NCBI GenBank assembly: GCA_019115285.1
Contig: DXDU01000010.1
Span: 1-51,590 of the forward strand
Reading direction: 5' to 3'
From: Candidatus Acutalibacter pullistercoris
GTDB taxonomy: Bacteria > Bacillota > Clostridia > Oscillospirales > Acutalibacteraceae
DNA: 51,590 nt
Shown here: positions 37,559 to 46,556 of the stretch, piece by piece
Position numbering within the stretch: position 1 is the stretch's first letter
How the letters are laid out: every line of letters begins with the position of its first letter
Program-made: the position numbers and the translations under genes
The notes under the pieces: model-generated
The model's database searches: none
Seen by the model: the letters and a program-made list of their open reading frames with translations, nothing else
Told to the model about the DNA's origin: nothing

Positions 37559-37645
37559 TGGTGCCGCTAACCGGGGTCGAACCGGTACGGGATCGCTCCC
37601 GAAGGATTTTAAGTCCTTTGTGTCTGCCAATTCCACCATAGCGGC
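37559..37645 (-). tRNA. tRNA-Leu (anticodon UAA)
   Basis: An 87-base class II tRNA. The acceptor stem is GCCGCTA/TAGCGGC with an encoded CCA; the D-arm reads TGGTGGAATTGGCAGACAC; the anticodon stem-loop AAGGA-CTTAAAA-TCCTT gives anticodon TAA; a variable arm (CGGGAGCGATCCCG) and GGTTCGACCCC T-arm follow. It decodes UUA and, by wobble, UUG. It has its own promoter and terminator. Confidence 0.97.
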
Positions 37646-43307: not shown

Positions 43308-43889
43308 ATGAAACTGTTGGAGGACCGCATCCTGCGGGACGGCCAGGTCCGGCCGGGGCAGGTGCTGAAGGTGGATTCCTTTCTCAACCACCAGCTGGAC
43401 GTGGAGCTGCTGGACCGGTTGGGAGCAGAGTTTTACCGGCTCTTCCGGGAAGACCGTGTCACCAAGATCCTCACCATAGAGGCCTCGGGCATCGCCGTGG
43501 CCTGCCTGGCGGCCAGACACTTCGGGGTACCGGTGGTCTTCGCCAAGAAGGCCAAGAGCAAAAACTTAGACGGGGACCTGTACACCGCCCCTGTCACCTC
43601 CTACACCTACGGCCGGGAGTACCAGATCACCCTGGCCAAGAAGTTTCTGGGGCAAGAGGACCGGGTGCTGCTGCTGGACGACTTTTTAGCAAACGGCAAG
43701 GCCATGCAGGGGCTGCTCTCCGTCTGCCACCAGGCGGGCTGCGCCGTGGCGGGCATCGGGGTGTGCATTGAAAAGGGCTTCCAGCCCGGGGGCAAAGAAC
43801 TGCGTCAGGCGGGCTACAAGCTGCGCAGCCTGGCCACTGTGGAGGAGATGACAGAGGACTCCCTGACCTTCCGCCCCCAGGAGGAATAA
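43308..43889 (+). CDS. xpt: Xanthine phosphoribosyltransferase
   Basis: A 193-aa purine-salvage enzyme that makes XMP from xanthine and PRPP. It begins MKLLEDRILRDGQVRPGQVL and has VDSFLNHQLD, TIEASGIAVACLAA and the PRPP-binding loop VLLLDDFLANGKAM, all typical of type I xpt. The ATG at 43308 has GGGGAGG upstream. It is alone on the plus strand and convergent with the flavoprotein gene. In B. subtilis xpt-pbuX has a guanine riboswitch; here none precedes it. Confidence 0.94.
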   Translation: MKLLEDRILRDGQVRPGQVLKVDSFLNHQLDVELLDRLGAEFYRLFREDRVTKILTIEASGIAVACLAARHFGVPVVFAKKAKSKNLDGDLYTAPVTSYTYGREYQITLAKKFLGQEDRVLLLDDFLANGKAMQGLLSVCHQAGCAVAGIGVCIEKGFQPGGKELRQAGYKLRSLATVEEMTEDSLTFRPQEE

Positions 43890-43949: not shown

Positions 43950-45350
43950 TTATTCTTCCTGCTCCGCCAGCAGTCGGCCCATGAGCACCCCCATGGCCGA
44001 GGCCATCATCAGGCCCCTGGTCCAGCCGGAGGAATCCCCCAGGCAGTGGAGGTGCTTCACGCTGGTGTTCAGCTCCTTGTCCATCTTCACCCGGTTGCTG
44101 TAGAATTTCAGCTCCGGGGAGTAGAGCAATGTCTCCACCGCGGCGAAACCTGGCACCACGTGGTCCACCGCCTGCATGAAGTTCAGAATGTTCACCATGG
44201 CCCGGTAGGGCATGGCGGAGGTGATGTCTCCCGCCACGGCGTCGGGCAGGGTGGGCCGCAGGTTGGAGCGGGACAGCTCCTCCTGCCAGGTGCGCTTACC
44301 GTCCAGAATGTCCCCGTACCGCTGGACCAGTATGTGCCCCGCCCCCAGCATGTTGGTGAGCTCCCCCACCTTCTGGGCGTACTCGATGGGCTGGTCGAAG
44401 GGCTCGGTAAAGTGGTGGGAACAGAGAATGGCCAGATTGGTGTTCTGGCTCTTCAAGTCTTTGTAGGAGTGGCCGTTGACCACCGCCAGGTCGTTGTCGT
44501 AGTTTTCCTGGCTCACAAAGCCGCCGGGATTCTGGCAGAAGGTGCGCACCTTGTTCTTAAAGGGCTTGGGGTAGCCGATAAGCTTGGACTCGTAGAGGAC
44601 GTTGTTCACCGTCTCCATCACCTCGTTGCGCACCTCCACCCGCACGCCGATATCCACCGGGCCTGGGGCGTGGGCGATGCCGTGGCGGGCGCAGAGCTTG
44701 TCGAACCAGTCCGCCCCCCGGCGGCCCGCGGCCACAACGGTCTCCTTGGCGTAGACCTCAAACTCCGTCTCCCCCTGGGTGAGCCTGGCCCCCAGGCAGG
44801 CCCCATCCTTCAGGAGCAGGTCGTTGCAGGCACAGCCGAAGCGGATCTCCACCCCGTGCTCCAGAAGGTAGCCCTCGATGGCGCCGTAGATCTCCTGGGC
44901 CTTCTCTGTGCCCAGGTGGCGGATGGGGCAGTCCACCAGCTTCAGGCCGGTTTGAATGGCCCGCTTGCGGATCTCCTTGATGGCCTCCTTCTCCCCCACG
45001 CCCTCCACGTGGGCGTCGGCGCCGAACTCCAGGTAGATGGAGTCTGCGTACTGAATCAGGCTCTCCGCCTGCTCCTCCCCGATGAGCTGGGGCAGGTCGC
45101 CTCCCACCTCGGTGGAGAGGGACAGCTTCCCGTCGGAGAAGGCCCCCGCCCCGGAGAACCCGGTGGTGATGTGGCAGTAGGGCTTGCAGCTCATGCAACG
45201 GCCGGTGGTGGCTTTGGGGCAGCGGCGCTCCTCGATGGCCTTGCCCTTCTCCACCAGCAGGATCTTCCCCTTGCTCCCCTTGCGCAGCAGCTCCATGGCG
45301 GTAAAGATCCCCGCCGGCCCGGCTCCGATAATCAGCACGTCTGTGTTCAT
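43950..45350 (-). CDS. FAD-dependent oxidoreductase (COG2509-like)
   Basis: A 466-aa flavoprotein. The FAD-binding GxGxxG is at the N-terminus (MNTDVLIIGAGPAGIFTAME); a Cys-rich segment RRCPKATTGRCMSCKPYC follows near residue 45, then GFSGAGAFSDGKLSLS, and the C-terminal FAD motif HCLGDSSGWTRGLMMASAMG. This pattern belongs to the uncharacterised COG2509 dehydrogenases. The ATG at 45350 is chosen over a GTG at 45359 whose spacing to AAAGGG is too short. A purine-type riboswitch precedes it (45427-45495). The reaction is unknown; a link with purines is inferred from the riboswitch. Confidence 0.86.
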   Translation of the reverse strand: MNTDVLIIGAGPAGIFTAMELLRKGSKGKILLVEKGKAIEERRCPKATTGRCMSCKPYCHITTGFSGAGAFSDGKLSLSTEVGGDLPQLIGEEQAESLIQYADSIYLEFGADAHVEGVGEKEAIKEIRKRAIQTGLKLVDCPIRHLGTEKAQEIYGAIEGYLLEHGVEIRFGCACNDLLLKDGACLGARLTQGETEFEVYAKETVVAAGRRGADWFDKLCARHGIAHAPGPVDIGVRVEVRNEVMETVNNVLYESKLIGYPKPFKNKVRTFCQNPGGFVSQENYDNDLAVVNGHSYKDLKSQNTNLAILCSHHFTEPFDQPIEYAQKVGELTNMLGAGHILVQRYGDILDGKRTWQEELSRSNLRPTLPDAVAGDITSAMPYRAMVNILNFMQAVDHVVPGFAAVETLLYSPELKFYSNRVKMDKELNTSVKHLHCLGDSSGWTRGLMMASAMGVLMGRLLAEQEE

Positions 45351-45388: not shown

Positions 45389-45426
45389 AAAAAACCGCCT
45401 GGGAAGACTGTGCCCGTCCAAGACTG
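45389..45426 (-). promoter_or_regulatory. Expression platform of the purine riboswitch
   Basis: On the minus strand CCCAGGCGG (45395-45403) is followed by TTTTTT (45389-45394). The only good partners for CCCAGGCGG are the CCGCCTTGG stretches inside aptamer arms P2 and P3, so terminator formation would have to break the aptamer. GGGCAC and GTGCC flank the U-run and may form an alternative stem. Confidence 0.5.
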
Positions 45427-45495
45427 ACGAGTCATAGTCGGCCCCAAGGCGGCCGGTAGAAACGTTCCCCCAAGGCGGGAACCTATATAACACGT
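45427..45495 (-). ncRNA. Purine (guanine-type) riboswitch aptamer, variant loops
   Basis: On the minus strand the elements of RF00167-type aptamers are in order: P1 ACGTGTTAT/ATGACTCGT (one mismatch), J1/2 ATAG, P2 GTTCCC/GGGAAC, J2/3 GTTTCTAC, P3 CGGCC/GGCCG and J3/1 ACT. J3/1 carries C at the base-recognition position, which predicts guanine or hypoxanthine binding. Both terminal loops are GCCTTGG, unlike the standard AUAUGG and CCGUAAA loops; the terminal GG of L2 and the CC of L3, which pair in known structures, are kept. It lies between a sigma-A promoter and a flavoprotein gene. Confidence 0.82.
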
Positions 45496-45508
45496 TTGCC
45501 AAGAGTTA

Positions 45509-45537
45509 CTTATACCACACCAAGGCTTGTTTGTCAA
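45509..45537 (-). promoter_or_regulatory. Sigma-A-type promoter of the riboswitch-flavoprotein unit
   Basis: Minus strand: TTGACA (45532-45537), a 17-base spacer, TATAAG (45509-45514). Transcription would start close to 45502, a few bases before the aptamer. Confidence 0.82.
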
Positions 45538-45689: not shown

Positions 45690-46556
45690 ATGAAACGGAT
45701 CGCCATCGTCACCGACAGCAACAGCGGCATCTCCCAGGCGGAGGCCCAGCGCCTGGGGATCTCTGTTTTGCCCATGCCTTTCACCATCGACGGGGAGCTT
45801 TACTTCGAGGATCTCACCATCTCCCAGGAGGAGTTCTACCAACGGCTGGAGGCCGGGGCCGCCATTTCCACCTCCCAGCCTGCTCCCGGAGACGTAACCG
45901 ACCTTTGGGACAAGCTGCTGCAAAGTTACGACCAGGTGGTGCACATCCCCATGTCCAGCGGGCTCAGCGGCTCCTGCCAGTCCGCCCGCACATTGGCCAT
46001 GGAGTACGGCGGCCGGGTGGAGGTGGTGGACAACCAGCGCATCTCCGTAACGTTGTGGCAGGCGGTGATGGACGCCATGGTCCTGCGGGGCCAGGGCCTG
46101 GACGCCCGCGAGATTCGGGAGGAGTTGGAGGCTCGCCGGGCCCAGTCCAGCATCTACATCTGCGTGGAGACCCTAAAGTACCTGCGCAAAGGCGGCCGGA
46201 TCACCCCTGCCGCCGCGGCTTTGGGCACGGTGCTCAACGTAAAGCCGGTGCTGCAGATCCAGGGCGGGAAGCTGGACGCCTACGCCAAAGTCCGAGGGAA
46301 GAAAGCCGCCCGCCAGGCCATGATCGACGCCATCCGCAAGGATATGGAGACCCGGTTCCCCAAGGAGTGGGCCGACGGCTCCCTGCAGCTGGAGGCGGCC
46401 TATTCCGGCAACCCGGAGGAGGCCAAGGACTGGAAGAAGGAGCTGCGCAAGGCCTTTGGGACCAAGCGCGTGGACATGGCCCCGCTCCCCCTGAGCGTGG
46501 CCTGCCACATCGGCCGGGGCGCCCTGGCGGTGGCCTGCTCCGTGGCGGTGGGGTAA
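45690..46556 (+). CDS. DegV-family fatty-acid-binding protein
   Basis: A 288-aa protein of the DegV/FakB family, which binds fatty acids for the kinase FakA. It begins MKRIAIVTDSNSGISQAEAQ (the T/S-DS-N motif) and has ISTSQPAPGDVTDLW, HIPMSSGLSGSCQSA and LKYLRKGGRITPAAAALGTVLNVKPVL, all family hallmarks. The ATG at 45690 has AAAGG upstream. The open frame further upstream is spurious. It is a single-gene unit with promoter and strong terminator. Which fatty acid it prefers is not evident. Confidence 0.94.
   Translation: MKRIAIVTDSNSGISQAEAQRLGISVLPMPFTIDGELYFEDLTISQEEFYQRLEAGAAISTSQPAPGDVTDLWDKLLQSYDQVVHIPMSSGLSGSCQSARTLAMEYGGRVEVVDNQRISVTLWQAVMDAMVLRGQGLDAREIREELEARRAQSSIYICVETLKYLRKGGRITPAAAALGTVLNVKPVLQIQGGKLDAYAKVRGKKAARQAMIDAIRKDMETRFPKEWADGSLQLEAAYSGNPEEAKDWKKELRKAFGTKRVDMAPLPLSVACHIGRGALAVACSVAVG

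Follow-up and report, generated by a model that had tools for sequence, protein, structure and literature searches.

A compact guanine riboswitch variant overlapping its terminator, predicted to switch on a FAD-dependent dehydrogenase gene in Candidatus Acutalibacter pullistercoris

Guanine riboswitches of the xpt type (guanine-I, Rfam family RF00167) are built on a three-way junction, and the RF00167 alignment gives a consensus with 7 bp in P2, 7 bp in P3 and 7 nt in L3. According to the accessible parts of the structural literature, the choice between C74 and U74 sets purine specificity, with C74 predicting guanine (PMC3764141), and the usual contacts between the loops involve A33, U34, A65 and A66 (PMC5480868, PMC3764141). 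The pbuE adenine riboswitch is an ON switch whose terminator overlaps the aptamer via P3 (PMC9756952, accessible part). Guanine-II and xanthine-II are scaffold variants with predicted ON control, associated with purine salvage and degradation genes; they carry insertions in J2/3 and J3/1, together with U51G in xanthine-II (PMC9295807, accessible part). Among the literature matches listed, with subscription papers and supplements outside the scope, neither the compact geometry described below nor a FAD-dependent dehydrogenase gene preceded by a guanine riboswitch was reported, which is weak evidence of absence.

We analyzed a stretch of 51,590 nucleotides from Candidatus Acutalibacter pullistercoris (contig DXDU01000010.1; hereafter the window). 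The original prediction had described a guanine-type three-way junction closed by two identical GCCTTGG loops from which the usual A and U residues are gone. All of this is present, but on the minus strand (Table 1). Like guanine-I riboswitches, the element has the three-way junction, the J2/3 sequence GUUUCUAC, C74 and a GG in L2 that can face a CC in L3. It differs from them in a P2 of 6 rather than 7 bp, a P3 of 5 bp below an L3 of 7 nt, the absence of A33, U34, A65 and A66, a score under the family cut-off, and a terminator built from P3 and L3. Compared by description, it shares with pbuE the predicted ON logic and the P3 overlap, but has C74 rather than U74, so that guanine is expected, as well as a compact P2 and loops and another gene; it may work in a pbuE-like manner without being an adenine riboswitch. 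With guanine-II and xanthine-II it has in common a variant scaffold, predicted ON control and a purine salvage or degradation context, yet neither J2/3 nor J3/1 contains inserted bases. We put the probability at roughly three in four that this compact guanine riboswitch is a transcriptional ON switch for the FAD-dependent dehydrogenase gene, with L3 shared between the aptamer and the terminator. The residue numbers used here (U22, A33, C74 and so on) are those we take to apply from other purine riboswitches.

Table 1. Positions of the riboswitch, its predicted expression platform and related features in the window.
Feature	Position	Strand	Evidence
-35-like box TTGACA, 17 bp before the -10-like box	45532..45537	-	by eye; identical in three aligned relatives
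-10-like box TATAAG	45509..45514	-	by eye; kept in G022; TATTTA in L009 and L018
Guanine riboswitch aptamer, compact geometry, P1 to P1	45428..45494	-	RF00167, 34.7 bits (45415-45510); model R1, 72 bits (45429-45493, training sequence)
P1, one U.U mismatch	45494-45486 with 45436-45428	-	sequence, folding
J1/2 region TATAG	45487-45483	-	sequence
P2 (6 bp) GTTCCC/GGGAAC, closed by L2	45482-45477 with 45469-45464	-	sequence; P2 columns covary in 25 homologues
L2 GCCTTGG	45476-45470	-	sequence
J2/3 GTTTCTAC, ligand pocket	45463-45456	-	same as RF00167 consensus
P3 (5 bp) CGGCC/GGCCG, also predicted 5' arm of the terminator	45455-45451 with 45443-45439	-	sequence, covariation, terminator pairing
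L3 GCCTTGG	45450-45444	-	sequence
J3/1 AC (A73 C74)	45438-45437	-	RF00167 alignment
Predicted intrinsic terminator, overlaps P3, L3, J3/1 and P1	45389..45453; hairpin 45453-45394, U-run 45394-45389	-	3' strand CCCAGGCGG; minimum-energy fold
FAD-dependent dehydrogenase gene, putative regulated gene, ATG at 45350	43950..45350	-	ORF; Pfam FAD_binding_2 and FAD-depend_C above cut-offs
tRNA gene	37562-37645	-	only Rfam match in the window at cut-off

When 501 bases were scanned against all Rfam families, RF00167 was the sole match up to E = 5, at 34.7 bits and E = 7e-4. The covariance search proposed earlier therefore does find the element with the purine model, but below the curated gathering cut-off of 37 that serves as the reporting threshold, and a scan of the whole window at cut-offs reported the tRNA alone. 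The nearest relative (G022), with four core bases different, reached 40.1 bits and so passed. Purine riboswitches of this compact kind may be under-counted, since such copies fall below the Rfam cut-off. Our own model, R1, was built from 25 compact homologues with the window copy included; it matched the window once, at 72 bits, a score that is not independent because the window is a training sequence. The 2.0-Mb assembly, which is 87% complete, yielded no second RF00167 match, and single-sequence folding gave a weak z of about -1.4 that is uninformative for the aptamer. Judged from its sequence and that of its relatives, the window aptamer is real and represents a structurally altered guanine riboswitch, as the original prediction had considered: the scaffold is compact and the usual loop contacts are lost.

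A pattern fixing the spacing of the window matched 25 stretches in 84,980 species genomes. Two of these were identical over the aligned 65 bases, which together with the window leaves 25 distinct rows. The invariance of the L2 GG and the L3 CC is no evidence here, because the pattern fixed both. Helix covariation was strong: 89.8% of cells were paired, and 155 cells carried double changes where shuffling gave a mean of 51.6 and reached that number in 0 of 500 trials. The alignment and covariation together recover the three-stem P1/P2/P3 junction of RF00167. In 19 of the 25 rows the first and last bases of L3 can themselves pair (GC in 10, AU in 6, GU in 3), so that L3 amounts to a loop of 5 nt (CCUAA, for example) above a P3 of 6 bp; the window clade is among the other six. 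The compact geometry is visible in the sequence itself, and the shortening of P2 and L3, like the terminator that overlaps L3, had been overlooked in the original prediction. For wider counts we parsed 149 loci, dropping 39 without a parsed core. The remaining 110 gave 93 distinct cores, 47 with a 6-bp P2 (compact; many from the pattern that fixed P2 at 6 bp) and 46 with a longer P2. Compact aptamer-like matches also turned up outside Clostridia, in records of Bacteriovoracaceae, Ureaplasma and Bdellovibrio (L020, L022, L023, L029).

The expression platform was studied with equilibrium, ligand-free folds that include no kissing (loop-loop) energy. On these terms the 116-nt leader folds best as a terminator, with a 5' arm that runs from P3 through L3, J3/1 and P1 (-45.9 kcal/mol), against -37.6 kcal/mol with the aptamer enforced. 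Among seven transcript lengths, the aptamer was the best fold at 77 and 87 nt and was lost from 97 nt, just before the strand CCCAGGCGG joins the transcript. The U-run begins 44 nt past P3, and the hairpin consumes P3 bases in the manner of pbuE. Scoring overlap as a terminator arm that pairs back into P3/L3 by at least 5 pairs, we found it in 28 of 47 compact but 4 of 46 longer-P2 cores (Fisher p 2e-7, relatedness ignored), with 19 compact cores lacking it. Among loci gathered with R1, 40 of them hand-picked from a match list, the counts were 9/15 and 4/44. This stricter count replaced a first one made with fewer loci and a looser rule (26/44 compact, 6/34 longer).

An arm-swap comparison, restricted to cores with a usable U-run (43/47 compact, 34/46 longer), points the same way. 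P3 plus L3 of compact cores paired with their own terminator arm at a mean of -8.44 kcal/mol, against -6.69 kcal/mol with swapped arms (0/5000), whereas longer-P2 cores had no own-arm advantage (-4.41 vs -4.09 kcal/mol; 729/5000). Own-arm pairing was poor in several compact cores, for example L020, L022, L029 and L053. Much of the L3 sequence would be explained by this pairing with the terminator. The terminator arm of the window matches P3/L3 at -15.7 and P2/L2 at -13.6 kcal/mol. The 11-mer CCGCCTTGGGG is present in both hairpins (45476-45441), and therefore the arm could also pair with L2.

We next consider the gene content downstream. The dehydrogenase, which we take to belong to COG2509, has as its sole PDB match the uncharacterised protein VP0956 (3nlc), and no NCBIfam model matched it at its cut-off. 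In the 400 nt that follow the core, a homologue begins at 22 of the 47 compact cores and at none of the 46 with longer P2 (p 2e-8; 4/15 vs 0/44 among R1-gathered loci). Of 29 genomes in the genus, three have the gene (E up to 1e-40), and these three are also the ones with the riboswitch. Across the class Clostridia, 90 of 196 genomes carry the gene. Among 32 dehydrogenase loci scanned, a clear nearby riboswitch was found only at the three genus copies; the best 29 others, all from outside the genus, had none, apart from one weak 16-bit match, so the gene does not need the riboswitch. At least one lower-scoring homologue outside that scan carries one (G683, L058).

Twelve compact cores combine terminator overlap with the absence of the dehydrogenase gene downstream, and eight of them precede relatives of deaminases or xanthine dehydrogenase. 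These are 8-oxoguanine deaminase above cut-off (L027, L031, L054), guanine deaminase slightly below cut-off (L030, L040, L041), adenine deaminase slightly below cut-off in a truncated protein (L060) and xanthine dehydrogenase XdhA as a fragment (L082). The other four comprise an xpt-like gene (L004), a protein without NCBIfam match (L102) and two loci at which no ORF was found (L057, L059). A catabolic gene set induced by guanine would fit ON control. Compact cores without overlap precede mixed genes, some presumably encoding a permease, IMP dehydrogenase or a nucleoside-binding lipoprotein as assigned by eye, and therefore compactness alone does not equate to catabolism. Downstream of the longer-P2 cores there are mostly proteins that, on inspection by eye, we take to be Xpt-, NCS2-type permease- and PurE-like. 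The accessible part of PMC12507026 does not list the dehydrogenase among its urate enzymes.

Identical loops, with L2 and L3 both GCCTTGG, occur in the window, G012 and L018; none of the remaining cores among the 93 has them. G012 and L009 (Firmicutes bacterium CAG:94) are one and the same sequence, and G012 is 99% identical to L018 over 525 bases of the dehydrogenase gene; we therefore count two twin-loop lineages, one of them the window's. An exact search for aptamers with GCCTTGG as L2 in 200 genomes of the family returned the window only. A looser pattern matched 16 of 394 genomes of the order (17 sites, at least one of which, G433:C24, is not aptamer-like) and its reversed control 7, and was not used as a count. 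When the chance of L2 equalling L3 was estimated from the columns of the other 23 members, the result was zero because some letters are absent there, and this number is unusable. The promoter spacer contains GCCTTGG a third time (45526-45520, minus strand); this copy is absent from three aligned relatives and was set aside as chance.

The one informative comparison is with G022 (L005/L012), whose loops read GACTTGG (L2) and GCCTGAA (L3). Over the 53-nt core it is identical to the window at 49 positions, and all four differences lie in the loops: A instead of C at L2 position 2, and GAA instead of TGG at L3 positions 5-7. A 13-row protein tree, weakly supported at most other forks and with 38% of the G012 row filled, groups the window with G022 (99/96), G012 with L018 (100/99) and all four together (100/100). 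It follows that G022 changed both loops or that twin loops arose twice; leader exchange by recombination may be an alternative source of the pattern. The terminator arms differ as well. In the folds of the window and G022 each L3 pairs with its own arm, and by eye the G012 arm is also able to pair with its own L3. This co-change, a single event, supports coupling among L2, L3 and the terminator.

From these observations we propose the following mechanism. The aptamer would be transcribed first, with P1, P2 and P3 folding and L2 kissing L3 through G37-C61 and G38-C60. Without guanine, the later strand CCCAGGCGG would capture L3 together with the 5' side of P3 while AGUC pairs with J3/1 and P1, dissolving the aptamer and forming a terminator with six U's. 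Bound guanine would lock the junction, P1 and the loops, leaving L3 occupied and the terminator blocked, so that the gene is read. Because L3 is common to L2 and the terminator arm, the three segments would be expected to change together. Such coupling would have given L3 = GCCUUGG in the window clade, and L2 has plausibly followed since two extra C-G contacts would replace the lost A/U contacts. The aptamer, its compact geometry, the terminator overlap, the linkage to the gene and the joint loop change can be read from sequence; the ligand, the ON direction and the additional C-G contacts are inferred. The element is a guanine riboswitch of a compact lineage, probably of the ON type, in which L3 is constrained by the terminator.

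How the loops touch admits several readings. L2 ends in GG and the aligned L3 bases are CC, allowing the two Watson-Crick pairs G37-C61 and G38-C60, whereas the contacts A33-A66 and U34-A65 have no counterpart, as C and C in L2 stand opposite G and G in L3. The original prediction suggested a symmetric kiss in which each CC pairs with the other loop's GG around U-U, giving four C-G pairs. Both loop sequences allow it, and it is compatible with the mechanism above; the change of C33 to A in G022 alongside that of the L3 G's to A's would fit contacts 33-66 and 34-65. Across the 25 cores, positions 19-20 form standard pairs with 49-50 in 62% of cells, mostly A-U, and the L2-CC/L3-GG half is seen in the window clade alone, G022 having AC with AA. 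Moreover, G022 keeps C34 despite a partner A, its L3 change also suits its terminator arm, and published structures show A33-A66 and U34-A65 as non-canonical pairs next to the G-C ones (PMC3764141, PMC5480868, accessible parts), a geometry that simple C-G pairs may not match. Since the loop co-change is one event in one clade, the symmetric kiss is unproven, and we regard it as a tentative option. Somewhat better placed, though still short of even odds, is the reading that loop identity reflects terminator pairing alone or chance drift, with G37-C61 and G38-C60 as the only kissing pairs. Among compact cores L3 follows the terminator arm, and positions 2 and 3 of L2 vary within the set; the 72 distinct L2 loops of 7 nt include 59 with A at position 2 and 54 with T at position 3. 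However, this reading leaves the joint change of L2 and L3 in G022 unexplained, and the C at L2 position 2 is found in just one of the 72, that of the window.

The remaining alternatives concern what the element does. Guanine might lower expression through an OFF switch or translational control, as for xpt; guanine-I riboswitches usually do so (PMC9295807, accessible part), and our folding model is ligand-free. Forming the terminator, however, requires taking apart P3, L3 and J3/1, and no separate antiterminator was seen in the window leader, which makes this direction unlikely. The ligand variant suggested in the original prediction fares worse. The downstream gene is no classic guanine-riboswitch gene and the RF00167 score is under the cut-off, but every junction base fits the guanine class: U22, J2/3 and C74 are all in place and the guanine-II/xanthine-II insertions are lacking. 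Among homologues, J2/3 GTTTCTAC is kept in 93/93 parsed cores (partly as a search anchor) and C74 in 90/93. Therefore guanine, and not a new ligand, is predicted; a ligand variant was rejected given the canonical pocket, and altered specificity seems very improbable. The J1/2 sequence UAUAG, noted originally as a departure from UAUAA, does lack the commonest last base (A in 61, T in 22, G in 10 of the 93 cores), but with G in ten cores it is not rare and G24 was dropped as a special feature. Least probable of all is a decayed riboswitch, which could account for the low score and for the missing loop contacts by A and U. Against it, the window and G012/L018, two lineages whose proteins share 84-85% identity and whose flanks have diverged, have the same core sequence from TATA to ACTA, and relatives retain TTGACA, the helices and a terminator.

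If the preferred reading of a compact guanine ON switch is correct, the kissing loop is more than a structural clamp, being the place where ligand sensing and termination compete in this lineage, and it would provide a purine-related lead for a FAD-dependent family common in Clostridia whose only PDB relative is uncharacterised. A broader proposal, which we consider speculative and rather doubtful, is that gut Clostridia harbor a lineage of compact guanine ON switches in which L3 takes part in two exclusive contacts, the L2 kiss and the terminator base, so that L2, L3 and the arm co-evolve, reaching twin loops with four C-G pairs in this genus. Such a lineage would mark a guanine-induced catabolic regulon and tie the dehydrogenase to purine breakdown.

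A few further observations were made on purine genes and specificity. In the window, a xanthine phosphoribosyltransferase gene (43308-43889, plus strand; above NCBIfam cut-offs) faces the dehydrogenase gene, their ends lying about 60 bp apart, and a DegV-family protein gene (45690-46556, plus strand) is divergent from the riboswitch transcript. Elsewhere, in G117 (L143), G1024 (L147) and G109 (L149), a dehydrogenase relative immediately precedes an xpt relative in the same orientation, and an R1 match falls between the two. Finally, the compact cores L060, L057 and L059 carry ATTA at J3/1 (U74, adenine type) and have terminators overlapping P3/L3; L060, with the U74 that an adenine sensor should have, precedes the adenine deaminase relative.
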